This document shows positions 1 to 35,383 of a stretch of DNA of 41,923 bases, piece after piece; positions within the stretch are counted from its first letter, which is position 1; each line of letters starts with the position of its first letter. Below the pieces are notes generated by a model. It saw only the letters and a list, made by a program, of their open reading frames with translations. It was not told the origin of the DNA and did no database searches. Both the position numbers and the translations under genes were made by a program. Source of the DNA: an uncultured Bacteroidia bacterium (GTDB taxonomy: Bacteria > Bacteroidota > Bacteroidia > J057 > CALAJH01); contig CALAJH010000065.1 in assembly GCA_937922655.1 (NCBI GenBank), positions 1 to 41,923 on the forward strand, written 5' to 3'.

Positions 1-139
<139 letters not shown>

Positions 140-20208: not shown

Positions 20209-23200
20209 CTATTTTTTTTTCAATGCGCTTTCGGCGGGCAAACGCACAACAAAACCCGTGGATTCGGGTTCGGAAAAAAAATCCACGCCGTAGGTGGACA
20301 AATACGCGGCGGAAAACGCGCCCGGATTCGCGGCCCGGTAAAGCGGCAAGGCCGTTTTCAACAAACGATGGACGTTGTGGCGGCAAATATGAAAACGATA
20401 AGCGGGACCGGATTCGGCGCTCATTTCCCCGTTGACGAAAAGCGCCATTTTTTCCGGCGAAAACGGCGGCACGTGAAACAGCACGCTTAAGACCGCATCC
20501 TCGTCCTCCGTCCGGATTTCGACGCGTATTTTTCCCTTGCCTTCCAACGACTCGACGGCGCTCATTATCGTGTGGCGCCAAACCTGAAGCATGAGTTGCG
20601 GCAAACCGAAAACGCGCGTCGGCGTATGTTCGACAACCTCGACCTCGCTGCCGCCAATATGCAGATGATAACGATAAAATTTGAGAAAAATATCGAGCGG
20701 TTCGCGCACGTCGAAAAACAAGGGTTGAGGATATTGACGGATATAGGCCTGGAGGTTTTCGACGAGTTCGCGGGCGCGCCGGGCGGCGGCGCGGATGTTG
20801 TGAATCTGTTTCCACAACAGACCGACTTTATAAACGGTTTCGGCGGCGGCGCGGGCGTGGACGCCGAGCGCGGCAAATTGCGCCCAATTTTCACGGGCAT
20901 TGAGGCGTATCAGACGGTCGGCGACGTCTTCGGCCTCGGCGACTCCCGCCGCCTCGAACGCCCGCGTCCATTCTTTTTTGAGCCTTCGCTCCTCGGCGCC
21001 CGAAATTTCCACCGGCTCCGCGCCGGCCAAACGCTCAAACGTTTGCCAAACCACGTCCCTGACCTTCGGCGGCAACGATTCGAGACCCGTCGCCGCCGCC
21101 GCCACCGAACGGTTGAGCTCGGCCCGCAACCATTCGAGCGAACCGCTCATGGCCGCGAACGGGTTGTTCAATTCGTGAATCACTATGGGCATGATTTCAC
21201 CGATTTCGACGAAGGGCGCGGCCTCGGCCATTTCCACGCGATGACGCTCGATTTCGTTTTTTTGGCGGTTGAGTTCGTCTTTTTGACGGCGAAGTTCGAC
21301 GTTTTGTTCGGAAATAAGTTTGTTTTGGGCTTCGAGACGCAGGTTTTGGGCTTGGGTTTCGGCGTTTTTGATTTCAAGGATTTTGCGTTTTTCGTCCAAA
21401 AGTTCGTTGAGCGAACGCAGTTCGTCGTTGGCTTTGACGACCTCCTCGGTGCGTTCGCGTACGACGGCTTCAAGTTTTTCGATGCGCGATTGTTTGATTT
21501 TGTCGTTGTAATAAACGAAAAGTTGCGCCGCGGCCATGACCAACAAGACGTAGAGCAAATACGCCGAAAGCGTGCGATAGAGCGGCGGCCGCACGTAAAC
21601 CGATATCGTCAGGGCCTCGCCCGTTTGTCCGTAGGCGTCGCGCGTGCGAATGTAAATGAGGTTGGCGCCTTCGCGCAAGGTTTGATTGAAAATATTGCCC
21701 GCGTCGTTGACCGTCCATTGCGGCGCGTCGTTTTCCGATTCGACGACGGCGTATTCGTACGTCGGCGGATTGAAGGCCGAATGGAAGGCCGCCGCCGCGC
21801 ATTCGACCCGCAGTTGGTACGTGCCGTAGGGCAAACGTGTTTTCGGGCTCGAAAGCTCGGCAAAACGTACCGACGGGTCGGAAAAACTCAAGGCGCGCAC
21901 CGTCACCGGCGGCGGCGGCAATTTTGCGTAGCGCTCCCCAAACGCCCGCAACAAGTCCACGCCTATAATGTGTTTCGATGAAAAAAATCGGCAGTCGCCC
22001 GTTTCCGACAACAACATGTTCGTTACCCTTGGGGCCAAAGCCAAAATTTGCGTCGAATCCACGCCCGTGGAAGTAATGCGGTAAAGTTTGTTTTTGTTGA
22101 GGATGTAAGTCTCTTTTTCCGTGCCGCGAATCACGGGAAAAGTCGGGTCGATGTAACGCGACAAAACCGGTTCAAAAACGAAAAGTCCTTTTTGCGGGTC
22201 GTAACGCCAAACTTTGCGCTCTTCGGTCGGGATGGCGTAAACGATTCCCGCGGCGCGGCGAACTCTGACCTCCCGGTCGCATTCGCCGACGCACATGCGC
22301 TTAAAATCCTGTTTGACTCCGTCAAAGACACGGGCAATGTAAGGAAAGCGAATCACGTCCCGATTGGCCCCGACAAACAGCTCGCCGCCGGCGTTTTCGG
22401 AAAGCGAATTGATGCGTTCGATTTTGGTTTTGAGGTTGACGTGTTTCCATTGACCGTCGACGAGTTGAAAGGCCGTAACGCCGTCGCGCCGGCTCCATGC
22501 GTAAAACCTTCCGGGCAACGTGCGCGACGAAAGTATGCCGACGAACGAGCGCCGGTCGATGACCCGCACTTCCCCCGCGTGTACTTCGAACAAACCGTTG
22601 AGCGACTTGACGACAAGCCTGTCGTCGACGCGAATGACGGTGTCGCAACGCTCCTTGATTTTTTCGCTCACGAGTCGGAGGCGAAGCGCGTCCGCGGTCA
22701 AGGTCTGCATCACCGTTCGTTCTTTGAGCGCCGCTTCGATTTCTTCGTCTTTTTCGGCGAGTTGGGCGGAAAGTTTTTCGTTTTGCGCTTCGAGCTTTTT
22801 TATTTCCGCTTCGAGTTGTGTTTTAATTTTTTTTTTGGCGGTCTTTGCCTTTTCGACTTCCGCTTTTTTTTGGGCGATGCGTTTTTCGTTGGCCTTGATT
22901 TTGTCGCGAATGACGCGTTTGGATTCGTTGATTTGTTGAACGACGCGATTTTGGGCCTCGCTCCGCTCCATGCTTTCGTCGATACCCAAGACGTAAAGAC
23001 CGTTGTTGGCGCCGACGTAGAGTTTGTCGTCGAGTTGGACGAGGGCAAGGATATTGACGTCGGGTCGAACGGGAATAAAACGCATCGGCGCCTCGATGTT
23101 CGCCCATGAGAAAGCGTAGTCGTGCAACATCCACAGGTTTTTGTCTTTGTCCAAAAAGGGATGATTGACGACGTTTTCGGGCAATCCGTTGTCAATCGAA

Positions 23201-24111
23201 AGTTGTTTTTCGGGTTTGCCCGTTTGTAGGGAAATGAAAAAACAGCCGCGGTCGTAAGTGGAAACGACGAGATGCTCGTCGGTGGCCACGCCGCCCGAAA
23301 TGGTATAGTTCTCCCGGCGCAAAAAACGGACAAATTCGGGGGCGAAAGGCTCGAAGTGGTCGAGGCCGTCGGTTAAAAAAACGTCGTTGGTCGTGCCGAT
23401 AATTCGTTTTCCGCCCGTTTCGACGGCAAACTTTATCGGTTCGTTGTTGAGAACGGGGCCGATTTCGTGTTTGGTTTTGAGTTTGCCGTTTTCGAGCAAC
23501 AGGGCGTGGTTGTTGTCGTAAACGACGACGGTGCGGTCGAGCATGAACGCGCCGTCCAATTTACGGGGGGGAAAGCTTTCGACGGTTTTGTTGTCGGCGT
23601 GATAAATAAAAAGCTGTTCGGAGGAATAATAATAAACGTAAGGCAGGGCAACGAATACCTGTTCAACGTCGCCGATGGTTTTGTTGGGAATTTTTTCGCG
23701 GTAAGGGGCGGTGAGGTCGTAGTATTTGAGTTTGCCGTCGGCTTCGGGATAAATGAAACCGAAAAGATTTTTTCCGCCGACGTAAAGAATTCCATCGGCG
23801 CCGAAGGCGAGGGCGGAAACGGCGGAGACGTCCTTGTCGGGCGCATCGCCGGCCTTGACGGCAATAAAGCGATGGTAGGCCGTACCGTCGAACTCGTAAA
23901 CGCCGCCGCGCAGACCGATGTAAATCAAGCCGTTGGGCCCTTGCGCGACGCCGAATCCTTCTTCACGGACGGGCTCGGCGCCGTCGCCCGAACGATGAAA
24001 ATACAACCGGGACTGTACCGGCGGCGCATATTGGGCGTAAACCGCAACCCGCGCCCATGCGAACGCCATGCACACGGCCCAAAACCAACCCCTCGGGCCT
24101 CCCCGTCCCAT
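20209..24111 (-). CDS. Propeller/Y_Y_Y sensor protein with degenerate histidine-kinase module
   Basis: A 1300-residue envelope protein. Order: signal peptide (1-26), beta-propeller-type sensor (about 35-375), a charged coiled coil of about 110 residues (380-490), a second propeller half (about 490-765), Y_Y_Y-like Ig domain (about 770-845), transmembrane helix (848-868), cytoplasmic coiled coil (869-965), then a DHp segment VIHELNNPFAAMSGSLEWL (His about 979) with a helical insert ending NIRAAARRARELVENLQAYI. That insert fits a known HELNNP kinase subgroup. The ATPase domain keeps LPQLMLQVW, but the N-box Asn is replaced and no DxGxG or GxGxGL motif follows. I use the ATG at 24111; a GTG at 24153 is in frame. 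No response regulator is adjacent. Confidence 0.8.
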   Translation of the reverse strand: MGRGGPRGWFWAVCMAFAWARVAVYAQYAPPVQSRLYFHRSGDGAEPVREEGFGVAQGPNGLIYIGLRGGVYEFDGTAYHRFIAVKAGDAPDKDVSAVSALAFGADGILYVGGKNLFGFIYPEADGKLKYYDLTAPYREKIPNKTIGDVEQVFVALPYVYYYSSEQLFIYHADNKTVESFPPRKLDGAFMLDRTVVVYDNNHALLLENGKLKTKHEIGPVLNNEPIKFAVETGGKRIIGTTNDVFLTDGLDHFEPFAPEFVRFLRRENYTISGGVATDEHLVVSTYDRGCFFISLQTGKPEKQLSIDNGLPENVVNHPFLDKDKNLWMLHDYAFSWANIEAPMRFIPVRPDVNILALVQLDDKLYVGANNGLYVLGIDESMERSEAQNRVVQQINESKRVIRDKIKANEKRIAQKKAEVEKAKTAKKKIKTQLEAEIKKLEAQNEKLSAQLAEKDEEIEAALKERTVMQTLTADALRLRLVSEKIKERCDTVIRVDDRLVVKSLNGLFEVHAGEVRVIDRRSFVGILSSRTLPGRFYAWSRRDGVTAFQLVDGQWKHVNLKTKIERINSLSENAGGELFVGANRDVIRFPYIARVFDGVKQDFKRMCVGECDREVRVRRAAGIVYAIPTEERKVWRYDPQKGLFVFEPVLSRYIDPTFPVIRGTEKETYILNKNKLYRITSTGVDSTQILALAPRVTNMLLSETGDCRFFSSKHIIGVDLLRAFGERYAKLPPPPVTVRALSFSDPSVRFAELSSPKTRLPYGTYQLRVECAAAAFHSAFNPPTYEYAVVESENDAPQWTVNDAGNIFNQTLREGANLIYIRTRDAYGQTGEALTISVYVRPPLYRTLSAYLLYVLLVMAAAQLFVYYNDKIKQSRIEKLEAVVRERTEEVVKANDELRSLNELLDEKRKILEIKNAETQAQNLRLEAQNKLISEQNVELRRQKDELNRQKNEIERHRVEMAEAAPFVEIGEIMPIVIHELNNPFAAMSGSLEWLRAELNRSVAAAATGLESLPPKVRDVVWQTFERLAGAEPVEISGAEERRLKKEWTRAFEAAGVAEAEDVADRLIRLNARENWAQFAALGVHARAAAETVYKVGLLWKQIHNIRAAARRARELVENLQAYIRQYPQPLFFDVREPLDIFLKFYRYHLHIGGSEVEVVEHTPTRVFGLPQLMLQVWRHTIMSAVESLEGKGKIRVEIRTEDEDAVLSVLFHVPPFSPEKMALFVNGEMSAESGPAYRFHICRHNVHRLLKTALPLYRAANPGAFSAAYLSTYGVDFFSEPESTGFVVRLPAESALKKK

Positions 24112-24158
24112 CCACGCGCATATCCCGGCTTTTGTTTTAGTTGTTTTGCCCACCGACG

Positions 24159-24166
24159 CAAAAATA
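24159..24166 (-). promoter_or_regulatory. Putative promoter of the sensor gene (-7 element)
   Basis: TATTTTTG on the minus strand; GTTG at 24192-24189 (22-nt spacing) is a weak -33. Expected start is near 24153, giving a leader of about 42 nt to the ATG at 24111. Confidence 0.45.
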
Positions 24167-24198
24167 ACAAACTCCCCGTACGGCGGTTCAACCTACCG

Positions 24199-24227
24199 AA
24201 AAAATCGACCTCGTCTTTGGGGGTCGA
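24199..24227 (-). terminator. Second terminator-like hairpin upstream of the sensor promoter
   Basis: Minus strand: TCGACC, 11-nt loop, GGTCGA, then TTTTTT. It lies between the T9SS gene terminator and the sensor promoter, so it would insulate the sensor gene from readthrough. Confidence 0.6.
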
Positions 24228-24272
24228 GGTTTCGGAAATAAATTTTAGACCGTTTCTTCATCGAAAAAAGGA

Positions 24273-24311
24273 CAAAAAAACGCGGGCGGGCCCTATACGA
24301 GTCCGTCCGCG
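24273..24311 (-). terminator. Terminator of the beta-helix/T9SS type A operon
   Basis: Minus strand: CGCGGACGG pairs with CCGCCCGCG (one A-C mismatch), followed by a run of seven T. It starts about 23 nt after the stop at 24334. Confidence 0.75.
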
Positions 24312-24333
24312 CCAAAGATGAATAATGTGTACG

Positions 24334-27174
24334 TTATTTTTGCAACACGAGCCGCCGGGACATGCGCAATCCGCCGGCTTCGAAAACCAAGAGATAAACC
24401 CCCGACGGTTCGTCGATTGAAAGGTTGAGTTCGTGGAGGCCCGCGGGGACGCGGTCGTTGAGCAGTTGGCGCTTACGGCCGTCGATGCCCGTGAGCGTCA
24501 GACGGACTTCGGCGCTTTGGGGCAAAAAGTACTTGACGACGACGGCGCCGCCGGTGGGGTTGGGATAAGGTTCGTAAAGCACGGCGCCCGTAAGCGGCGC
24601 CTCCCGTCCCGTCAACAGCGTCGTTGCGGCGTCGGGGAACAAGGGGGCCGCCTCCCGGTTTTGCACCGCGTCCTCCGCCACCGAATAAAACGCGTACGTA
24701 TGCCCGAATTCGCCCGTAAACGTTGCGCTCGTTGCCTCCACACGATATTTCCACGGCTTAAACGCCGAATCGTTGTCCGACACGTATATCGTGTAATACG
24801 TCAGGCCCGAACCCGCGTCCGTTCCTTCCCAATTTACGGTAAAGGATTTTTGTTCCCACGTTTCGGCGGGCAAGGGCAAAACGCGGCTTTGGGGCGCGGT
24901 ACGGTCGATGCGGTTGCTCCACGTGTTGGTGACGATGGGTTGGTTGGCGTCGAAATAAATGGCGGCGCGGTTGCGGACGGGCAAGGATTCGTCAAAGTCC
25001 TTGCGGGCTTCGACGGTAAAGCCAACGAAACCTTCGCCTTCGGGTTGATTGCGGTTGGGGGGCAAAAATCCCAGTTCGGGTTCGACGGTCGGCGTTCCCG
25101 AATCGGGGTCCAAACTCGTGAACGTCCATTTGACCACGCCCGTTTGCTCGTCGAACTCGCCCTTGACGTGGGCGGGCGTAAGCATTTGCGGGCGAAAATC
25201 GAGCGTGGCCTCAAAACCAAAGCGCGTTTCCGTCGGCGTAACCGAACGTCCGCCAAAACCCAAAGGCCCGAAACGGAAGGTGCTCACATCGTATTGGGCC
25301 ACGTCCAAGGTATCCAAAATCCTGCAAACCTTGACGGGTACGGTGGGCAGGCCGTTGATGAGCGTGTCCTTGTTTTCAAAGTAAATGGTATAAGGTATGG
25401 GGTGAACGCCGGAGGTGGCGCGTTGGGTTCCGATGCCGACGGGGCCGATTTTTTCGTTCGGGTCGAAGGACGTTACCGTACGCACGTTGCGCGTCGAGGA
25501 GCGTTGGGCCCGGGACATGGCCCAACAGTTGCTCGCGATATCGTAGGCGTTCCACATAAAGTTTATGCTTTTCCACGCGATGCGAAAGAGTTTGTAAGGC
25601 GGCAGTCCCGCGGCCACGCAGTTGTTCACCGCTTGAAAAACCGATTTTCCCATATCGCCGTAGACGTCGTTTTCCGTGGCGTTGCCTTGGTGCCAATGAT
25701 AGGCGGCGAAAAGGCCGTCGAAAGTGATGCGCACCGAACTTAGAATGCAATCGTAATAATCGCCGGCGACGACGCCCATCATATCGGCGAACATCCCCCA
25801 AATGGCGGAGACGCACTCGGTGGCCTCGCGTTTGACGGGCGACTGCATGAGCGGTTCGGAAACGCCGACGGCCACGGGAAATTGCACACCCAAGGGCGCC
25901 TCCAACCAAAATTCCATGGTTACCGAGCCGCCGACGGGAACTTTGGGAATCAGCAACATACAACCTTTGGCCTGCGTCGCTTGTCCGTTGAGCGAATCCA
26001 AGTCCGCCCACGTGGGAAACGAATCGGTGGGCATCCCCGGAACGTCGGGATAAAAGTTTATGTTGGGAAAAGTTACTTTGACGTTGCGGGCCGTGAGTAT
26101 TTGGAGCGGCGTCAAAAGCGCGTCGTTGTTGCCCCGGTTGGTTACCACGACTTGATACCGCCAGGCCATGCCGTGAATAATGACTTCGCGCCCGATAAGT
26201 TCGACGGTCAAGTCGGGATGCGTGCCGGCTTCGACGGTAAAGGCTTGAGCGAGGGTATAAGTTTGTCCGCCGAAAATCATTTCCACGTCCCAAAGGCCGA
26301 CGGGCGCGTCGTGCAAATCAAAGACCGCGTCCACCGAATGGGCTCCGGCTTGCGTCGCGCTTTGGGCCGTAACGACGTTGTTGCCCATTTTGAGGCGGTA
26401 GACGGCGTCGTAGGGCAGGCACGTGCCCGTCAAACGGAGGGTGGCGTAGCCCGTGTTGCCCGCCCGTTGGGGGTAAACTTCCTGCAAGGTCAAGGCCGCG
26501 CATTTTTCAAATTCATGGCTCAATATCGGACAAACGTTGCCGCGAACGTCCTCCAACCAAAAATGCGCCGCGTGAAGCCCTTCGGTCAAAGCCGAAATAT
26601 CCGCCGTCACATCCACCTGATAACGCGAGCTGTCCAAGGTTACGGCATAAGGCACGCCGTCGATATTGATTTTGTAACGGATTTTGGCCACAAAGTTGTT
26701 TTCGGGCGCGGCATAAAAACGAAAACTTTGCACGGGACTCACCCCTCCCGTTGCCGAACGCAAGCGCAGGTGCAAGACGTGGTAATCGGGGCTAAGTCCT
26801 TCGGTCGGTACGGAGACTTCGATTTCGCCGTTTGCGGGCGTAACGGTCGCCGTTTGCTTTTGGGCGTAAGCGTTGTCAAACCAATATTCGTATCCCGTAA
26901 CGTCCCCCGCATACACGAAAGGATAGGATTGTACGGGGCTGTAACGCCCTTCGCTGTCCCGGAACCTCAAATGAAGCTTGTGGGCGCCGTGGCTCAATCC
27001 CGCAAGCGATAGGGTCGGCTCGAAGTCGAAGGTGGTTTGGCTCGCCCCGGTGGCGGCGCTTTGGCGTTCGGCGTAACGGTCGTCGAACCAGTATTCGTAG
27101 TTTGTAACGACGGACTGCGCTCCGGCAAGGGCGGCGCAACCCATCCACAAAACAATGGCTAAGAACTTTTTCAC
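24334..27174 (-). CDS. Secreted T9SS type A sorting-domain protein with YEYWFD repeats
   Basis: A 946-residue surface or secreted protein. GTG start; signal peptide ending LAGAQ (about residue 20). Three related N-terminal modules follow: two begin YEYWFDD/YEYWFDN (about 26 and 95) and the third is a diverged KIRYKINIDG copy (about 165). A central region leads to FDPNEKIGPVG (about 590) and a conserved module ending NRAAIYFDANQPIVTN (about 765). The C-terminus is a type A sorting domain (YPNPTGGAVVVKYFLP and late SGVYLLVFE, MSRRLVLQK), which directs export through the type IX system. Its NRAAIYFD module recurs in the divergent type B protein. The role is unknown; adhesion is plausible. Confidence 0.88.
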   Translation of the reverse strand: MKKFLAIVLWMGCAALAGAQSVVTNYEYWFDDRYAERQSAATGASQTTFDFEPTLSLAGLSHGAHKLHLRFRDSEGRYSPVQSYPFVYAGDVTGYEYWFDNAYAQKQTATVTPANGEIEVSVPTEGLSPDYHVLHLRLRSATGGVSPVQSFRFYAAPENNFVAKIRYKINIDGVPYAVTLDSSRYQVDVTADISALTEGLHAAHFWLEDVRGNVCPILSHEFEKCAALTLQEVYPQRAGNTGYATLRLTGTCLPYDAVYRLKMGNNVVTAQSATQAGAHSVDAVFDLHDAPVGLWDVEMIFGGQTYTLAQAFTVEAGTHPDLTVELIGREVIIHGMAWRYQVVVTNRGNNDALLTPLQILTARNVKVTFPNINFYPDVPGMPTDSFPTWADLDSLNGQATQAKGCMLLIPKVPVGGSVTMEFWLEAPLGVQFPVAVGVSEPLMQSPVKREATECVSAIWGMFADMMGVVAGDYYDCILSSVRITFDGLFAAYHWHQGNATENDVYGDMGKSVFQAVNNCVAAGLPPYKLFRIAWKSINFMWNAYDIASNCWAMSRAQRSSTRNVRTVTSFDPNEKIGPVGIGTQRATSGVHPIPYTIYFENKDTLINGLPTVPVKVCRILDTLDVAQYDVSTFRFGPLGFGGRSVTPTETRFGFEATLDFRPQMLTPAHVKGEFDEQTGVVKWTFTSLDPDSGTPTVEPELGFLPPNRNQPEGEGFVGFTVEARKDFDESLPVRNRAAIYFDANQPIVTNTWSNRIDRTAPQSRVLPLPAETWEQKSFTVNWEGTDAGSGLTYYTIYVSDNDSAFKPWKYRVEATSATFTGEFGHTYAFYSVAEDAVQNREAAPLFPDAATTLLTGREAPLTGAVLYEPYPNPTGGAVVVKYFLPQSAEVRLTLTGIDGRKRQLLNDRVPAGLHELNLSIDEPSGVYLLVFEAGGLRMSRRLVLQK

Positions 27175-27180
27175 GGTCGT

Positions 27181-28170
27181 TTACTCGTTTTGGGCGCTGA
27201 CGCGCAAACGGACGTTAAGGTGGTTGCCCGACGCCGAAGGGGGCGCTTGAATAAAATCGACGTGGGGGTTGGCGGGCAAAAGACCGTCCTTCCACGGATA
27301 ATCCCCGCCGTAAATGCCCGCGTCGTCGGGGGTTTCGGGCGTGCCAAAGCGTGCCGGCGAATTGGGCTTCAAACGAAAATCGTAGGTTTCGGAAAACGTC
27401 GTCGCCCCTTCGGGAACGTTCTCGAAGAGGTCCGTCACGGGAACGTCGACGAGATTGCCCGATTGCGGACAATTGGTGCCGGAACCGCTCAAGGCGCTGA
27501 CCGTCGAAAAAACGTTGTCTTCGACGACGACGTTAATACATTCGTAAACGCCGTACGGCAGGCCTGCTCGCAAAACGATGTTTTTTCGGAAGACTCCGTT
27601 TTTGATATAAAGAGCTTGACCCGTGGGGGGAAGAAATACGTTGTTTAAGAGGTCGGCCCGGGAATCGGTCCAGACGTTGAGGTCGCGCATGACGTTGTTG
27701 TAGAAATAAGCGACGGTTTGCGTACCGGAGGTGGGCCGCACGCCACAAGAAAGGATGACGTTTTGAATGAAAATGTTTCCGGCCAAATTTTCGTATACTT
27801 CCAAGTGCGGCAAATAGCAACGCTTAACGGTAATATGGCCGGCACGAAGGGAGAGTGAGCCGGAAAAGCGCAAGCCTTCAAAAGACGAATACTCCGCCCC
27901 CGGTCGCAACGTCGGTGAATTGGTAATAAACGTTGGTCCGGTGGCGGCGGTCATGCGCCGGTCCCAGCCCACGCCCACGATGTGCACCTGCCTGTCAATA
28001 TCGGGCAAGGCGAAAGCGCCGCCGGGGAGATAGATTTTATCTCCGGGTTGGACGGCGTTGTAAGCGGCAGCGAAGTCGCCGAAAAGCGCGTCGGTAACCG
28101 TGCCTTTGACCCATATCAAGCCTTGGGCGTGGGCGTTCGCGACAAAAGCCAGCAATAATGCGACAATCAT
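27181..28170 (-). CDS. Secreted right-handed beta-helix-like protein
   Basis: A 329-residue protein with a clean signal peptide (MIVALLLAFVANAHAQ). Its opening VKGTVTDALFGDFAAAYNAV followed by PGDKIYLPGG is typical of pectate-lyase-like beta-helix proteins that start with an amphipathic cap helix. The middle has periodic short strands ending in Asn (NVILSCG, YFYNNVM, DLLNNVF, FRKNIVL, VVEDNVF). No catalytic Asp/Arg set can be named, so it may be a binding protein. No T9SS tail is present. It starts the operon, with the T9SS type A gene 6 nt downstream. Confidence 0.75.
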   Translation of the reverse strand: MIVALLLAFVANAHAQGLIWVKGTVTDALFGDFAAAYNAVQPGDKIYLPGGAFALPDIDRQVHIVGVGWDRRMTAATGPTFITNSPTLRPGAEYSSFEGLRFSGSLSLRAGHITVKRCYLPHLEVYENLAGNIFIQNVILSCGVRPTSGTQTVAYFYNNVMRDLNVWTDSRADLLNNVFLPPTGQALYIKNGVFRKNIVLRAGLPYGVYECINVVVEDNVFSTVSALSGSGTNCPQSGNLVDVPVTDLFENVPEGATTFSETYDFRLKPNSPARFGTPETPDDAGIYGGDYPWKDGLLPANPHVDFIQAPPSASGNHLNVRLRVSAQNE

Positions 28171-28623: not shown

Positions 28624-31600
28624 ATGAGAACGAAAACGGCAATTTTAATATTGTCACTAATGACAATGAGTGGGGGCGGCGCTTTGTGGGCGCAACTGAC
28701 GGCGACGGCTACGAACGTCAACGCCGTCCCTTGCGCATGGACAAACAGCGGCGCGGTAACGATAACGGCTTCGGGCGGCACGCCGCCGTACCGATATTCG
28801 CGCGACGGCGGACTGACTTACGTTGCCAATCCCACGTTTACAAATTTATACGGCGGCGCCCATGTTTTTATCGTCCGCGACAATGCGGGCGAACGCGTCC
28901 ACGTACCGGTGTTTATTCCGTCGCCGCCGCCTTTGGTTGCGACCGTGAACATCGAGCCGATTTCGGCTTGCGGCGCCAACGACGGCGGAATTTTCGTCGA
29001 AGTGGAAGGCGGCACCCCCCCCTATCAAATATCGTTGAACTACGGGCCGTTCGGCGTGCAAAACCAATTCGCGAATTTGTCGCCGGGACAGTACTATATT
29101 CGGGTGCGCGATGCCGCCGGCTGTTCCGCTTTTCGCTCCGTCAATTTGTTTAACCCCACGCTATTGAACGCGACGGTAAACGTCGTTCCTCCCACCGGAT
29201 GCACCACGGCCAACGGCGTAATAGAAATCACCCCCCCGACGACCGGAACGCCGCCTTATGAATATTCGTTGAACTGGGGCGCGTGGCAGGCCGGCAACAC
29301 GTTTGCCGGTCTGCCTACGGGCTACTACAGAGTCCGGGTGCGCGACGCCGAAGCCTGCACGTTTGAAAAAAACGTAACTTTGAATTATTCTTCCCAACTT
29401 TGGGCATGGGCAACGCCGACGGTCATGCCCGCATGCCCGGGCATGGGCGGCGGAAGCGCCGAAATCCACGTCTCGGGCGGAACGCCGCCTTACAACCTTT
29501 TTTTCAACGGCACGAACTACGGCCCCGTTTCCAACGCCACGGTCTCCAACCTTACGGCGGGACAAACGTATACGGGCTTTGTAAGCGACGCCGGCGGTTG
29601 CTCGCGCAGCTTTAGCTTTTACATGCCCGCCGCCCCCAACACCTTAACCCTCGAAACCGAAACCGTCCAGCCCGACTGTTTTCAAAACAACGGCGAAATT
29701 CGCATAACCGTTAACGGCGGCACGCCCCCGTACACTTTCGCCTTCAACAACGGCCAAACCCTTTACACCAACCCCGCCGTCCTCTCCGGACTGACGTCGG
29801 GCAATTATTCCGTGGTCGTTAGCGACGCCGGCGGATGCAGTAAAAACGCAAGTTTTCAATTGACCAATTCCATCGTCGTCGAAACGAACGTCGTTCGCCG
29901 CCCGATATGTTGGGGTTCGACGACGGGAATACTGGAAATCCACGCTTCGGGTTCGACGGGACCGTACGAGTATTCCATCAACGGCGGCCAGTCGTGGCAA
30001 ACCAACAACGTTTTCACGGGACTTACGGCCGAAATCTACCAAATTCGGGTACGGGACGCATCCGCCGGCCCCGACAACGGCTGTACTCAGGGCCAATGGT
30101 TTTATTTGGAGCCCGAGACGTTTACCTTCACGCCGCACGTTACACAAGCGGTATGCGGCGGCGAACCCTCGCGCGTTTGGATAGAGGTGGCGCCGCAAGG
30201 CTACGATTTAGATTTCAGCCTTACGGGCAACGCCTTTCAAGCCGACAGCGTTTTTAACGATTTGCCCGCGGGCGTTTATCAAATTTTCGCCCGCGACCCC
30301 GTTTCCCAATGCGTCGTTTATCAAGACAGCGCCTATTCCGAGGCCAATGCTTTGGAGGTTTTCCCGCCGTTCGACTTGGCCGTCGAAAGTTTGCCTTCGG
30401 GTTGCGCGGCGCCGACGGGCAGGCTCGAAGTGTTTGCCGCCGGCGCGGAGCCTTTCGTTTACGCCCTCAACGACGGCGCGTATCAAAACCAATCCGTATT
30501 CGAGCATTTGGCTCCGGGCGACTACGTCGTGCGCGTCCGGGACGCCGAAGGGTGCGTGGCCGCCCGTGCCGTAACCGTCGAAAACAACCAACCCTTTTTC
30601 GTCTCGGGCGGACGCGCCAACGTCTCCGGCCCCGGCGCCTCCAACGGCTACATTTACATTTATGCATGGCCCAACCCCGCCTTGCCCTTGACCATCGTCG
30701 TCAACGGCGTCGAATACGTTTCCAACAACGCTTATTATCAAATCCAAGGTTTGCCCATCGGCGACTACGAAATCGTCGTTACCAACGCCGACGGCTGTTC
30801 GCAAACCCTAAACTTTGTTTTGGGCTTTGACGCGGGCAACCTCCAAAACTTGGTTACGGGCGTGGTCTTCGAGGATTGGAATCAAAACGGTCTTCGCGAC
30901 GAAAACGAGGCCCCCATCCCCCGACACTTGGTTTACGTCACGACCGAAACGGGCAGCGCTTTTTATCGATACACGACGACCGACTCCGAGGGCCGCTACG
31001 CCTTCAACCTCCCCGCCGGCAATTACCGACTCTATGCCAACCATCTTTTCCATTCCGAACAAACCGCCCCCACCGAAGCGTATTATGCTTTGTCGTTTGC
31101 GGAAAACTCTTCGATGAACGAAAACCTCGACTTCGGTTTGGGTTTTGAGCCCGTGGTGGACGCGGCCGTTACCCTTACCGCCGTCAACAACCCTGTTGCG
31201 GGCGGCGTGGTGCGTTATTATCTCACGGCCAAGAACATGGGAACGACAACGCTCGACGGCAGATTTACCTTTGAGCGCGCGGCGGGTTTGACGGGCATGA
31301 GTTCGGTCGTGGCGCCGTCCGCAAGCAACCCGCCGTTTTATACATGGGACTACGCCGATTTGGCGCCGTTCGCCTTTGCCAACCTTGCCGTCGATTGCAA
31401 CGTGCCGACGAACGCGGCGCCGGGAAGTTGGTACGTCGGCCGCGCAAATATCGAACCGACCGTCGGCGACGCCTTTTTGCCCAACAACGCCTACACCTGT
31501 TCAACCCAAGTACGCCCCGCCCCCTACGACCCGAACGTCAAGTTGGCGATGAACGACGAAGGCGCCGTCGTCGATACGATTCTTGAAACCGACGCTTTAA

Positions 31601-32904
31601 CCTACTTTATTCGTTTTCGCAACGAGGGCGAGGGCCCGGCTGAAAACGTCGTCGTCGTCGATACGCTGCCCGAACACCTCGACCCTCGCACGTTCGAAAT
31701 GCTTGGCTCGTCCTTTGCCACCCGACACAAAATCACGGGCGAAGGCATGGCCGTAGTTGAATGGCGTATGGAAGGCATCCAACTGCCACCCGCCCAAAGC
31801 GACGACCTCGGAAGCTACGGCTTTGTCAAGTTCAAAATCAAGCCGTTTGAAAACCGTCCGTGCGAAACGCTTGTTTCCAACCGCGCCGCCGTCTATTTCG
31901 ATTACAACGAACCGATTTTTACCGAATACAGCCGGGTTTTGGTCGATCCGAAGGCGAGGGCGCAAATCCATGCGCCCGACACCGTGTGGGTCAACGAGAC
32001 GTTTGTCGCAAGCGCGAGCGACGTGGTCAATTTCCGCGATTCGCACACGCTTGCGTGGAGCAACGGCGCGACGGGTCTTGAATCGTCGTTCGCGTTTTCC
32101 ACGCCCGGCCCCCAAACGCTCGCCTTGACGCTAACCGGCCCCGAAAAAAGCGACTGCGGTACGACGGTTACCCAATCGGTTTACGTCAAAGCATGCCCCA
32201 CGCCGACAAATTACCGCGTCAATCACGAAATCTGTTCGGACAGCACGCTCGTCTTGGACGCAAGCGGAATGACGGGGGCGTGGGCCGACGGTTACGCGGG
32301 CGCCGTTCGTCCCGTGAACCAAGCAAAAAGCTACGTCTTTGAAATATTTTTGGGCGGCCCCTGCAAGGATTCGTACACTTACGTCGTGGACGTAAAAAAT
32401 TGCGACACGCCGTGTCCGCCCACCGATTTGCCCGACGAACGGGTGGAAATTTGTCCGTTTGAATCGACGACGCTCGTCGCTCCGCGTGCCGACGCGGCCT
32501 ACCGGTGGACGAACGGAGAAACAAGCCGACAACTAACCGCCGACAAAGAAGGCGAATACGAGGTGGAACAAACCGATGCGGAGGGTTGCGTCGAACGCGT
32601 AAAGTTTGTGGTGCGCTACAAGTCGTGCGAGGGCAACGCGCCTTCGAACGTTTTCACGCCCAACGGCGACGGGCGCAACGACTATTGGACGATAGACGGC
32701 CACGGCATCGAGCGGGTGCAGGCATGGGTTTCGGACCGTACGGGTACGGTGGTTTTTTCCCACGACGGGGCGGCGGGATTCAAATGGAACGGCCTTTACC
32801 AAGGCGCCGAACTGCCTTCGGGCGTCTACTTCCACCGCTACCGCCTGACCATGCGCGACGGCAGAAACGTCGACGGCTCGGGAACGATAACGATACTTCG
32901 CTAA
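28624..32904 (+). CDS. Giant SprB-repeat cell-surface protein with T9SS type B (gliding-motility-type) C-terminus
   Basis: A 1426-residue secreted protein. Signal peptide ending GGALWAQ. About nine SprB-type repeats follow (residues about 25-735), most with GGTPPY followed by YSLN or YSRD and ending YRVRVRDA-like strands (TPPYEYSLNWG, GTPPYNLFF). A prealbumin-like SdrD-B domain starts GVVFEDWNQNGLRDENEAP (about 748). A DUF11-like domain comes next, then a YDPNVKLAMND...NRAAVYFDYNEPIFTE module, then PKD-like regions. The C-terminal type B sorting domain has SNVFTPNGDGRNDYWTI and late ELPSGVYFHRY. Such proteins are moved by the T9SS, and SprB itself is the gliding adhesin of Flavobacterium. An adhesin role is inferred. 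Confidence 0.92.
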   Translation: MRTKTAILILSLMTMSGGGALWAQLTATATNVNAVPCAWTNSGAVTITASGGTPPYRYSRDGGLTYVANPTFTNLYGGAHVFIVRDNAGERVHVPVFIPSPPPLVATVNIEPISACGANDGGIFVEVEGGTPPYQISLNYGPFGVQNQFANLSPGQYYIRVRDAAGCSAFRSVNLFNPTLLNATVNVVPPTGCTTANGVIEITPPTTGTPPYEYSLNWGAWQAGNTFAGLPTGYYRVRVRDAEACTFEKNVTLNYSSQLWAWATPTVMPACPGMGGGSAEIHVSGGTPPYNLFFNGTNYGPVSNATVSNLTAGQTYTGFVSDAGGCSRSFSFYMPAAPNTLTLETETVQPDCFQNNGEIRITVNGGTPPYTFAFNNGQTLYTNPAVLSGLTSGNYSVVVSDAGGCSKNASFQLTNSIVVETNVVRRPICWGSTTGILEIHASGSTGPYEYSINGGQSWQTNNVFTGLTAEIYQIRVRDASAGPDNGCTQGQWFYLEPETFTFTPHVTQAVCGGEPSRVWIEVAPQGYDLDFSLTGNAFQADSVFNDLPAGVYQIFARDPVSQCVVYQDSAYSEANALEVFPPFDLAVESLPSGCAAPTGRLEVFAAGAEPFVYALNDGAYQNQSVFEHLAPGDYVVRVRDAEGCVAARAVTVENNQPFFVSGGRANVSGPGASNGYIYIYAWPNPALPLTIVVNGVEYVSNNAYYQIQGLPIGDYEIVVTNADGCSQTLNFVLGFDAGNLQNLVTGVVFEDWNQNGLRDENEAPIPRHLVYVTTETGSAFYRYTTTDSEGRYAFNLPAGNYRLYANHLFHSEQTAPTEAYYALSFAENSSMNENLDFGLGFEPVVDAAVTLTAVNNPVAGGVVRYYLTAKNMGTTTLDGRFTFERAAGLTGMSSVVAPSASNPPFYTWDYADLAPFAFANLAVDCNVPTNAAPGSWYVGRANIEPTVGDAFLPNNAYTCSTQVRPAPYDPNVKLAMNDEGAVVDTILETDALTYFIRFRNEGEGPAENVVVVDTLPEHLDPRTFEMLGSSFATRHKITGEGMAVVEWRMEGIQLPPAQSDDLGSYGFVKFKIKPFENRPCETLVSNRAAVYFDYNEPIFTEYSRVLVDPKARAQIHAPDTVWVNETFVASASDVVNFRDSHTLAWSNGATGLESSFAFSTPGPQTLALTLTGPEKSDCGTTVTQSVYVKACPTPTNYRVNHEICSDSTLVLDASGMTGAWADGYAGAVRPVNQAKSYVFEIFLGGPCKDSYTYVVDVKNCDTPCPPTDLPDERVEICPFESTTLVAPRADAAYRWTNGETSRQLTADKEGEYEVEQTDAEGCVERVKFVVRYKSCEGNAPSNVFTPNGDGRNDYWTIDGHGIERVQAWVSDRTGTVVFSHDGAAGFKWNGLYQGAELPSGVYFHRYRLTMRDGRNVDGSGTITILR

Positions 32905-32920
32905 TTCCATGAAAACGACC

Positions 32921-32949
32921 GCCGGCGCCGAAAGGCGCCGGCTTTCTTT
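32921..32949 (+). terminator. Strong terminator of the SprB-repeat gene
   Basis: GCCGGCGCC, GAAA tetraloop, GGCGCCGGC, then TTTCTTT. It starts 17 nt after the stop. Confidence 0.9.
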
Positions 32950-32997: not shown

Positions 32998-33030
32998 TTT
33001 GCTTACGTATTTAGATAATCATTATTTTTG
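32998..33030 (+). promoter_or_regulatory. Promoter of the small secreted-protein cluster
   Basis: TTTG (32998-33001), 21 nt, TATTTTTG (33023-33030). Expected start is near 33036. The -7 box is flanked by AATCAT (33017-33022) and ATGATT (33032-33037), an inverted repeat that may be an operator. Confidence 0.65.
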
Positions 33031-33046
33031 CATGATTAATCCGTCT

Positions 33047-33214
33047 ATGAACCAAGCTCGGAAGTGGAAGTCGGCGTGGGCCTACGGAATGTTGGCCGCG
33101 TTTGTATTTTTAGTGTTGGAATCCTGCTCACCCAAGCAAAGTCCGCAACTTCGTGGAGGATGCCACGGGCAGAAAATCAACAACCATACGTCCATTAGAA
33201 AATTTTTATATTAA
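33047..33214 (+). CDS. Small lipoprotein-like secreted protein, member 1 of trio
   Basis: A 55-residue protein starting at the ATG at 33047 (MNQARKWKSAW). A hydrophobic helix (about 13-25) leads to LVLESCSPK, where Cys could be lipidated, although Glu in the lipobox is unusual. The short mature part ends RGGCHGQKINNHTSIRKFLY. The segment GGCHGQKINNH aligns with the endings of the next two genes (GKCNGMRTNNA and GHCSAMRTNNA). An in-frame ATG at 33032 lies before the predicted transcription start and is not used. Family not recognised. The next gene starts 6 nt after this stop. Confidence 0.65.
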   Translation: MNQARKWKSAWAYGMLAAFVFLVLESCSPKQSPQLRGGCHGQKINNHTSIRKFLY

Positions 33215-33220
33215 GTAAAA

Positions 33221-33352
33221 ATGAAAAACTTGAAATTGATTTACTTGGGTTTCGGGCTGGCATTGGCGGTGGCGCTCGGTGCGTGTTCGTCGTCGCATGG
33301 AATGTTCGGCAACGGTAAATGCAACGGCATGCGCACCAACAACGCACGTTAA
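33221..33352 (+). CDS. Tiny lipoprotein, member 2 of trio
   Basis: A 43-residue protein (MKNLKLIYLGFGLALAVALG then ACSSSHG). A clear lipobox LGAC (Cys 22) shows lipid anchoring. The mature part is only about 22 residues and ends NGKCNGMRTNNAR. The C-terminal C-x2-M-R-T-N-N-A is nearly identical to that of member 3 and related to member 1. ATG at 33221, TAA at 33350-33352. Translationally close to member 1 (6 nt gap). Confidence 0.75.
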   Translation: MKNLKLIYLGFGLALAVALGACSSSHGMFGNGKCNGMRTNNAR

Positions 33353-33389
33353 ACTTAAACATTGTTATACTCTTAATCTTTGGTTTGCA

Positions 33390-33656
33390 ATGAAAATCAT
33401 GATCGTCTTTCTGACCGCGGCAATAGGATTTTTCGCAAACGCCCAAGCGGCGAACGGTGCAGGCGGGGAAGGCAAAAAAATTCATAAGTCGGGTTGGTCG
33501 TCGCACCATCACTCCCACCATCACTGGACGCGAGGCGGCTCGAAGCCGCACCACGGCGTTACCCACAGCCCTATCAGCCATCACGGCAAGTCCAGAAGCG
33601 TTCACGGCGGCGGCCATTGCAGCGCCATGCGCACCAACAACGCGGGCTTCCGTTGA
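33390..33656 (+). CDS. His-rich small secreted protein, member 3 of trio
   Basis: An 88-residue protein. The start is the ATG at 33390 (MKIMIVFLTAAIGFFANAQA, a signal peptide with likely cleavage after NAQA); the longer frame overlaps member 2 and lacks a signal. The mature part is rich in His, Gly and Ser (SSHHHSHHHW, KPHHGVTHSPISHHGK), which could bind metal, and ends GGGHCSAMRTNNAGFR. It shares the terminal C-x2-M-R-T-N-N-A motif with member 2. It is 37 nt after member 2 and followed by a terminator at 33680. Confidence 0.72.
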   Translation: MKIMIVFLTAAIGFFANAQAANGAGGEGKKIHKSGWSSHHHSHHHWTRGGSKPHHGVTHSPISHHGKSRSVHGGGHCSAMRTNNAGFR

Positions 33657-33679: not shown

Positions 33680-33708
33680 CGTCCCGTGCGAAAGCCGGGG
33701 CGTTTTTT
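33680..33708 (+). terminator. Terminator after the small-protein cluster
   Basis: CGTCCCG, 9-nt loop, CGGGGCG (one G-T pair), then TTTTTT. It overlaps by 2 nt the end of the convergent Ig-like gene. Confidence 0.75.
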
Positions 33709-35383
33709 ATTCCGCGGTCAGCCGGATGTTTTCGGTTTTCCAGCCCGCGCGAAGCTTTAACTTCTCGGGGTGGTAAACGATTTTTTCGGGCAATCGACGA
33801 GGGGTAAGGCTTCCGGGCGTCCAACGTCCGTTACCGTCTTCGTCGTGAACGGCGTACAAGGTATATTCTCCGGCGGGAACGTACGGAAATCCAAAAACGC
33901 CGTCGGCGTTCGGCCGTGTGCCGTACGTTTTTCGCGTCGAGGACAAAAAAACGACGACGTTCGCCTTTAACGACGTTCCCCGCACGGAAGCGAAGTTGTC
34001 GAAGGAGGGCGGATTGTATTTTTCGGATATCAAGCTGTCGAGTCGAAAACCGTCGTCGGAGACGAACGAGGTATCCACGACCCATCGGAATTTGTTTAGC
34101 GAATCGTTGGGGGGCAAAAGAAACATTTCATAAGGCGAACGTCCCGGACGCGGGCGGGCGGCGATTTTTATGTTGGCGGTGTCAAGCCAATAGACGCCGT
34201 TGTAAGGCGGGGAAACCGGGGAATCGAAAACGAGGGCGAGGGTTGAGGGAGCGTCGTCGGGCGGGGAGGCTTTGGCGCAACGCAAGGAACGGGTTTTTCC
34301 CGTCGGTTTGGGAGTGAACGTTAGCGTCGTATCCGTCCACATTCCCGCCGTATCCGCCGCCCACAACCGAAAACGAAGCGTGTCGCCGCGCTCAAAAACA
34401 GAGGCCGGCAAGCGTACGCTTTTGGGGCCGTCGGTTTCAAGCCCAAAGAGCCGAACAAAACCCGAGTCGGGCGGACGTACCTCCGAAGCCCGAAGGGCAA
34501 CCGTATCCTTGCTTTGAATGCCGGGCCGAATGCGCACCTCGACGACCGGCTCGTTGAAATTGAGCAAAAAGTTGCGGTCGTTGAGGGGCGCGATGGAAAT
34601 CAAACGCGGAGCAAAAGTATCGGGTAAAAAAGAAACAAGGTTTACGCTCCGAAAACACGCCATCGATTTGCCTGCATCCGACCAACGTTCAAAAATTTCG
34701 AGTTCGTCGTCGAAAGCAAAAACGACCTTTTCCGTCGGGGCGTTGTAACGAAAATTTCCGTCTTTTTCAACCACGCCGAAGATACGGTAACGTCCGGGTT
34801 TGAGGTAGCGCAGGGCGTATTTGCCGCCCGAATCGGTTTGAGCGGCGTAAACGGGACGGCGACGGACGTAATTGCCGTCGGCGACGGAGTCGGCGTCGAA
34901 AAGCATGACCGTCGCTTCGGCGACGGGGCGGGCGGAAAACGCGTCGTTCACGCGTCCAAAGACGGTGCAGGTATCGAGACGCGGTCCCGTGGAAAAGGCG
35001 TACATCAACGGGGGGTTGAGCGGCTGTTTTTCGTGAAAGTCGCGTAATCCCGCGCCCAAAGTGAAAACGTAGGTCGTCGAATCTTTAAGCGGCGCACGAA
35101 ACTTGACGTGCAAGCGTTTGCCCTGCGTATAAAATTCGGGTTTTTTTTCGGGAACGGGCGAAATAAACACCCCCTTGGAGAAATCTCCGGCTTCGAGGTA
35201 TTTGTCGAAGGCAAAAATCACTTTTGCGGGACGGACATTGGTTTGGGCGTAAGGCGGCTCGACGCCGACAAGCGTCGGCCCTTTAAGGTCTTTGCTTCCG
35301 CCGCTCGGCCCGCGTTCCGTCGCGCAACCTACGGACAGCGCCGTCGCGGCGGCGGTTATCGTTGCGAACCGTTGAACGTTCAC
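33707..35383 (-). CDS. Ig-like-domain lipoprotein
   Basis: A 558-residue probable lipoprotein. GTG start at 35383 (MNVQRFATITAAATALSVGC), with a Cys at residue 20 and then a Ser/Gly linker, RGPSGGSKDLKGPTL, typical of Bacteroidota lipoproteins. The following strand-rich region AKVIFAFDKYLE fits an Ig-like (SbsA-type) domain. Later there is a carboxypeptidase-regulatory-like segment (VFGRVNDAFSARPVAEATV, GGKYALRYLKPGRYRI) and a related C-terminal repeat (GVFGFPYVPAGEYTLYAVHD). It probably sits at the outer membrane or cell surface. The in-frame extension to 35644 runs into the IS1 relic and is not real. Role unknown. Confidence 0.8.
   Translation of the reverse strand: MNVQRFATITAAATALSVGCATERGPSGGSKDLKGPTLVGVEPPYAQTNVRPAKVIFAFDKYLEAGDFSKGVFISPVPEKKPEFYTQGKRLHVKFRAPLKDSTTYVFTLGAGLRDFHEKQPLNPPLMYAFSTGPRLDTCTVFGRVNDAFSARPVAEATVMLFDADSVADGNYVRRRPVYAAQTDSGGKYALRYLKPGRYRIFGVVEKDGNFRYNAPTEKVVFAFDDELEIFERWSDAGKSMACFRSVNLVSFLPDTFAPRLISIAPLNDRNFLLNFNEPVVEVRIRPGIQSKDTVALRASEVRPPDSGFVRLFGLETDGPKSVRLPASVFERGDTLRFRLWAADTAGMWTDTTLTFTPKPTGKTRSLRCAKASPPDDAPSTLALVFDSPVSPPYNGVYWLDTANIKIAARPRPGRSPYEMFLLPPNDSLNKFRWVVDTSFVSDDGFRLDSLISEKYNPPSFDNFASVRGTSLKANVVVFLSSTRKTYGTRPNADGVFGFPYVPAGEYTLYAVHDEDGNGRWTPGSLTPRRLPEKIVYHPEKLKLRAGWKTENIRLTAE

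Follow-up and report, generated by a model that had tools for sequence, protein, structure and literature searches.

The three tiny genes P0001, P0002 and P0003 are best read as a relocated, triplicated and diverged branch of a widespread family of bacilliredoxin-linked lipoproteins. They lie together in the window, by which we mean the whole stretch of 41,923 nucleotides that was analysed, and each product carries a cysteine tail. The genes and the elements around them are as follows.

28624-32904: upstream SprB/CHU_C surface-protein gene
32921-32942, plus strand: intrinsic-terminator-like hairpin ending the SprB/CHU_C gene, before the trio (z -3.4 against shuffles)
32998-33030, plus strand: Bacteroidota-type promoter of the trio, TTTG-N21-TATTTTTG, by motif match
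33047-33214, plus strand: P0001, 55-aa lipoprotein with lipobox VLESC and tail CHGQKINNHTSIRKFLY
33161-33211, plus strand: Cys tail of P0001 (GGCHGQKINNH), Cys codon at 33161
33221-33352, plus strand: P0002, 43-aa lipoprotein with lipobox ALGAC and tail GKCNGMRTNNAR, Cys codon at 33320
33307-33345, plus strand: tail repeat copy A (P0002), 39 nt
33390-33656, plus strand: P0003, 88 aa, Sec signal without a lipobox, tails GHCSAMRTNNAGFR / CSAMRTNNAGFR, Cys codon at 33618
33605-33643, plus strand: tail repeat copy B (P0003), 39 nt, 82% identical to copy A
about 33680-33709, plus strand: hairpin with a T-run, probably terminating the trio (folding energy of the stretch -17.4 kcal/mol, by itself unexceptional at z -1.1)

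The preliminary description of this DNA had proposed three plus-strand genes of 55, 43 and 88 codons, and we confirmed them at exactly these coordinates. It had also given them a promoter and terminator of their own, which is supported by the TTTG-N21-TATTTTTG element, by the strong hairpin at 32921-32942 that separates them from the SprB/CHU_C gene, and by the hairpin and T-run downstream. Promoter sites of the TTTG-N21 type number 10 in the window, against 1.35 expected by chance, and an in-frame ATG at 33032 was ruled out as the start of P0001 because the promoter spans 32998-33030. The reading of P0001, P0002 and P0003 as one transcription unit, with its own promoter and a predicted terminator, is supported by these sequence elements. 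The term "secreted" held for P0003, which has a Sec signal, but not for P0001 and P0002, whose lipoboxes mark them as lipoproteins. Elsewhere in the window, a 56-nt unit occurs three times at 248-532, with a spacing of 114-115 nt, and each copy holds a minus-strand TTTG-N19-TAATTTTG promoter; they stand a short way upstream of the start of the 16S rRNA (1-138, minus strand) and are tandem rRNA promoters. Upstream of the SprB/CHU_C surface protein, the minus strand at 20209-28170 encodes two proteins, one of 1314 aa that weakly matches a histidine kinase and one of 946 aa that contains DUF7619.

Within the trio, the tails follow the common pattern C-x-[GA]-[QM]-[KR]-x-N-N-[HA]. That they are related, as had been suggested, was borne out for P0002 and P0003, whose match was reached in 0 of 2000 shuffles, and for P0001 and P0002 (2 of 2000), but the match between P0001 and P0003, taken alone, was not above chance (552 of 2000). 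The tail of P0002, CNGMRTNNAR, runs to the stop codon and equals in length the CQATKVGNHR of same-order relatives. P0002 and P0003 share their tail as the 39-nt DNA repeat, and one tail was therefore probably copied from the other; the codon bias of the window does not separate recent copying from coding constraint. If the resemblance were accidental, or came from a recent but functionless nucleotide duplication, this would agree with the 18-nt identical run in which both tails use the same codons, and with the occurrence of exact MRTNN nowhere else. Such an explanation is disfavoured and in our judgement scarcely credible, as P0001 and P0002 fit the profile of a conserved family from which the window genome had been left out, and the tails of relatives are under purifying selection.

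Beyond the window, exact MRTNN gave only chance matches among 22 genomes of the order, 395 genomes of the class, viral contigs and a collection of 84,980 species genomes, from which records very near the window may be missing. The looser G-x-C-x2-M-[RK]-x-N-N likewise gave chance matches only (395 phylum genomes), P0002 and P0003 returned noise as BLAST queries, and class-wide matches to CxxQKxNNH outside the order were mostly chance. The preliminary description had staked its case on conservation in relatives, and the tail is indeed conserved in relatives of the order, though the MRTNN spelling was found in the window genome only.

In the same order, genome G004 encodes a clear relative of P0001 (tail NCYSQKTNNHKSSKTFIN), and a search with C-x2-Q-K-x-N-N-H subsequently located G001 and G008 (tail ECFGQKPNNHKFQ); all three proteins are tiny lipoproteins. 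In G001, in G008 and in G117, which belongs to another family, the gene is divergent from that of a THUMP-like methyltransferase (PF18096). A profile search of 247 class genomes gave clear matches to its own members only, but weak ones exposed lipoproteins in G117 and G167, and the methyltransferase could therefore serve as a locus anchor. The family was collected with this anchor, about 0.5 kb being read on its far side before extension. Twelve other genomes of the order (G001, G008 and G003, with G009, G002, G021, G012, G014, G013, G017, G015 and G011) were found to encode a lipoprotein of 38-45 aa, divergent from the THUMP-like methyltransferase, with the tail C-x-[AG]-x-K-x-[GNS]-N-H-[RK]. 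This tail reads CQA[KQT]K[VI]GNHR in the genomes listed from G009 to G011 and CQAKKTSNHR in G003. G004 is the thirteenth order genome, its lipoprotein gene lying away from the methyltransferase. All members from the order have the lipobox Cys, the tail Cys and the motif's last Asn, and nearly all have the Lys and the His. In other orders, the counterpart by position usually carries C-P-x-[FYL] before an end that varies (HKDQCPSYKISTVVGK, KGSCPKFSIDWVSFFN and NRNQCPAFSQVEAQQPAVRS, for example, or CPGV in G082), and what can still be recognised is just the Cys, as a rule with Pro after it. Outside the methyltransferase context, G167 encodes a tiny lipoprotein (L159, 1501-1623) whose tail, KCNGQRGVKVPMGVL, resembles the KCNGMRTNNAR of P0002 and may represent a separate Cys-tail family.

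Among ten members of the order, pN/pS was 0.11 in the tail, where synonymous sites are near saturation, against 0.51 in the signal region, and signal and linker diverge. These values indicate strong purifying selection on the tail, in agreement with the earlier view that the tail and not the body is the conserved part, and they also show that the lipoprotein genes of these ten members are translated. A role of the tail as a processing or sorting signal, also put forward earlier, is unlikely because the mature protein of most relatives amounts to roughly the tail alone. The trio and the ten relatives lie outside all Pfam and NCBIfam models, consistent with the claim that no named family or system has this tail, and our search of open-licence papers found nothing on such lipoproteins; the family appears to be undescribed so far. 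Short exported proteins with a conserved C-terminal tail might also be precursors whose tail is the actual product, secreted as a signal or as a modified peptide, and for one relative the MNIO-class modified-peptide model gives a weak match (16.4 bits, below the cut-off of 40). This match falls mainly over the signal, the genes annotated or read at the loci included none recognisable as a modifying enzyme, and lipidation would hold the peptide at the membrane; we regard a precursor as very unlikely.

To place the trio itself, a tail profile built without the window genome was scored on the 1542 Cys 10-mers of the window. P0001 ranked first, with a score of 23.1, the best unrelated Cys 10-mer scoring 17.7, whereas P0002 (13.6, rank four) and P0003 (10.1, rank nine) lie inside the chance range by score alone. 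The family tail near the C-terminus, C-x-[AGS]-x-[KR]-x-[NGS]-N-[HA]-[RK], is clear in P0001, and is assigned in P0002 and P0003 by position and paralogy; on inspection, a lipobox is present in P0001 (LESC) and P0002 (LGAC) but not in P0003. P0001 is thus securely a member of the family, and P0002 is one less strongly, on score, length, lipobox and adjacency. The attribution of P0003 runs mainly through its DNA repeat with P0002, because it ranks only ninth of 1542. The neighbourhood differs from that of the family: the trio has no adjoining methyltransferase, and no BrxC was found in the window. The methyltransferase of the window genome, at C58:54728, stands alone with no lipoprotein gene beside it, from which we conclude that the trio has moved; a search of the window and of some 6-7 kb around this methyltransferase found neither BrxC nor OsmC.

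In many family members, the gene directly downstream encodes BrxC/YtxJ, a monothiol bacilliredoxin (E 1e-31 to 1e-36). Of the 21 methyltransferase loci that carry the lipoprotein gene, 11 have brxC immediately next to it, compared with 0 of the 25 loci that lack the lipoprotein (Fisher p 2.6e-5, an optimistic value because the loci are related). Away from the methyltransferase, the lipoprotein gene of G004 is also directly upstream of brxC. The pair is present in several orders, usually with a gap of -4 to +17 nt (G009 5, G012 8, G014 10, G017 4, G015 4, G004 17, G097 -1, G058 8, G079 3 and G036 -4) and in G003 with one of 85 nt; the lipoprotein gene is not accompanied by brxC in about half of the relatives. 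In G115 (L187, 2715-3018), two different tiny Cys lipoproteins, CPAFETSEKRFSKK... and CPAFSQVETPAEARS, one of them with a long Lys-rich tail, stand in tandem directly before brxC, which is a precedent for the trio. At the G004 locus (L145, 2170-2908), two adjacent and very similar small genes precede the lipoprotein-brxC pair, and the second matches the CZB zinc-binding domain.

This gene order could also suit an export-monitoring arrest peptide, in which the signal would sense export and the tail would stall the ribosome and set the translation of the downstream gene, brxC: a signal is combined with a tail conserved up to a stop codon that lies a few nucleotides before brxC or overlaps it. 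We hold this to be improbable, since many members lack brxC or any other coupled downstream gene, a terminator follows the last gene of the trio, the tail-to-stop length varies outside the order, and the lipobox, needless for arrest, is kept in nearly all members. As to other neighbours, an OsmC-family gene is often convergent and lipA is often close. In two genomes of one genus, G013 (L227) and G002 (L228), the T9SS gene porZ takes the place of brxC downstream of the lipoprotein gene, the only T9SS link at the loci examined. A T9SS connection had been read from the gene before the trio, and the comparison did not support it for the window genome: the conserved neighbours elsewhere are brxC, the THUMP-like methyltransferase, the OsmC-family gene and lipA, and the SprB/CHU_C neighbour looks incidental.

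With regard to function, we see about an even chance that the trio arose by relocation, tandem copying and divergence from a tiny envelope protein that occurs across the class and whose single-Cys tail presents a reactive thiol in the periplasm. The layout would be that of a lipid anchor (in P0001 and P0002), a short linker and the single-Cys tail. The mature part is too short to be expected to fold, tails of 10-20 residues being expected to be unfolded, and a lone conserved envelope Cys is most simply a reactive thiol. Each lipoprotein would present one such thiol close to the membrane, facing the periplasm as judged from the lack of an acidic surface-export signal. Surface export by such a signal, which follows the lipid Cys in the form of, for example, K-(D/E)2 or SDDDD (PMC5080379), was tried as a candidate and rejected on inspection of the mature starts, CSPKQ and CSSSH. 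In oxidant, electrophile or metal stress, this thiol might pair transiently with an envelope partner through a disulfide, or might capture oxidants, electrophiles or soft metals. The lipoprotein would be produced together with BrxC, a cytosolic thiol-repair enzyme that takes bacillithiol off oxidised proteins (PMC10950700), bacillithiol being made by Bacteroidota (PMC6282198). A direct reaction between the two is unlikely because BrxC is cytosolic and the tail exported, and the brxC linkage may reflect co-regulation only, a likelier reason for it than direct contact. In the window genome, the set would have left brxC and tripled, and one tail would have been put on an exported, His-rich carrier resembling metal-binding proteins.

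With 14 His among its roughly 69 mature residues, this carrier (P0003) brings up a serious alternative, a role in metal binding: the tail Cys together with His or Asn, and the His-rich body of P0003, would bind, buffer or hand over Cu or Zn in the envelope. Besides the Cys tail added to these histidines, the C-x7-H pairing of Cys with His in the order-level tails would suit such a device, as would the position of the G004 gene behind a very similar gene pair of which one matches the CZB zinc-binding domain. However, the class-level tails (CPKFSIDLPIIGLSF, CPAYKITILAK) and the tail of P0002 have no His, and no metal transporter genes were seen at the loci examined; we put the probability of this role well below that of a periplasmic thiol, at perhaps one in five. 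A docking peptide comparable to LptM, whose lipid-anchored motif would insert into an outer-membrane complex and aid folding or disulfide formation, is less likely still. E. coli LptM, also a tiny lipoprotein, contacts LptD and aids its disulfides (PMC10567701), and the G003 protein weakly matches the NCBIfam LptM model (E 0.0055, 16.8 bits). Nevertheless, that match is below the cut-off of 27.7 and limited to signal and lipobox, PF13627 is not reached (10.0 against 27.3), and the order-level tails are without the Pro and aromatic residues of the class-level tails.

To our knowledge, there has been little work on bacillithiol in Gram-negative bacteria, and the known bacillithiol enzymes are cytosolic. 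A widespread tiny lipoprotein co-transcribed with brxC would be a first candidate link between bacillithiol and the envelope. Its gene is so small that annotation tends to miss it and it has no family model, yet its tail is strongly selected, and in the trio a short functional tail appears copied to an unlike carrier (P0003). Extending the periplasmic-thiol reading, one may tentatively picture a class-wide envelope thiol system of Bacteroidota, in which lipid-anchored, unfolded peptides with one reactive Cys, produced along with the bacillithiol repair enzyme BrxC, would use disulfide exchange to guard envelope proteins or to control them, and of which the window genome would have made a three-member set with a His-rich exported version; we think this broader picture possible but rather doubtful.

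Among known systems, T9SS cargo (CHU_C, Por_Secre_tail) touches the trio through the CHU_C cargo gene immediately upstream, but the trio has its own promoter and no sorting domain, and this neighbour is not kept in relatives; as a candidate identity it was rejected, the three proteins having no Pfam or NCBIfam domain. Also rejected was an MNIO-class precursor (NF050125), for which one relative reached 16.4 of the 40 bits required, the trio had no match, and no such enzyme was found at the relatives' loci. LptM (YifL; PF13627, NF047847) is likewise a tiny lipoprotein with its function in a short motif after the anchor and with a tie to disulfide chemistry, its conserved short N-terminal part contacting LptD and helping disulfides to form (PMC10567701), but the order tails share no residues with it and the gene neighbourhood differs. 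Membership of that family was rejected, as the trio gave no match and the best relative reached 16.8 against 27.7 bits (NCBIfam) and 10.0 against 27.3 (Pfam). The BrxC/bacillithiol system is the operon partner in relatives and shares the theme of a single reactive Cys, but BrxC is a cytosolic thioredoxin-fold enzyme, while the trio consists of exported unfolded tails that do not adjoin brxC in the window genome. Closest are the Bacteroidota lipoproteins of 36-45 aa encoded upstream of brxC (YtxJ, TIGR04019/PF11009), which have the same lipobox, short linker and single-Cys tail, the order-level tail fitting P0001 well and P0002 with M/R/A substitutions. The trio differs from them in being triplicated and set away from brxC and the methyltransferase, and in P0003 as a His-rich exported carrier that is not a lipoprotein. 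It appears, then, to be a variant among tiny functional lipoproteins, a known sort of protein, within a family that itself seems new to description.
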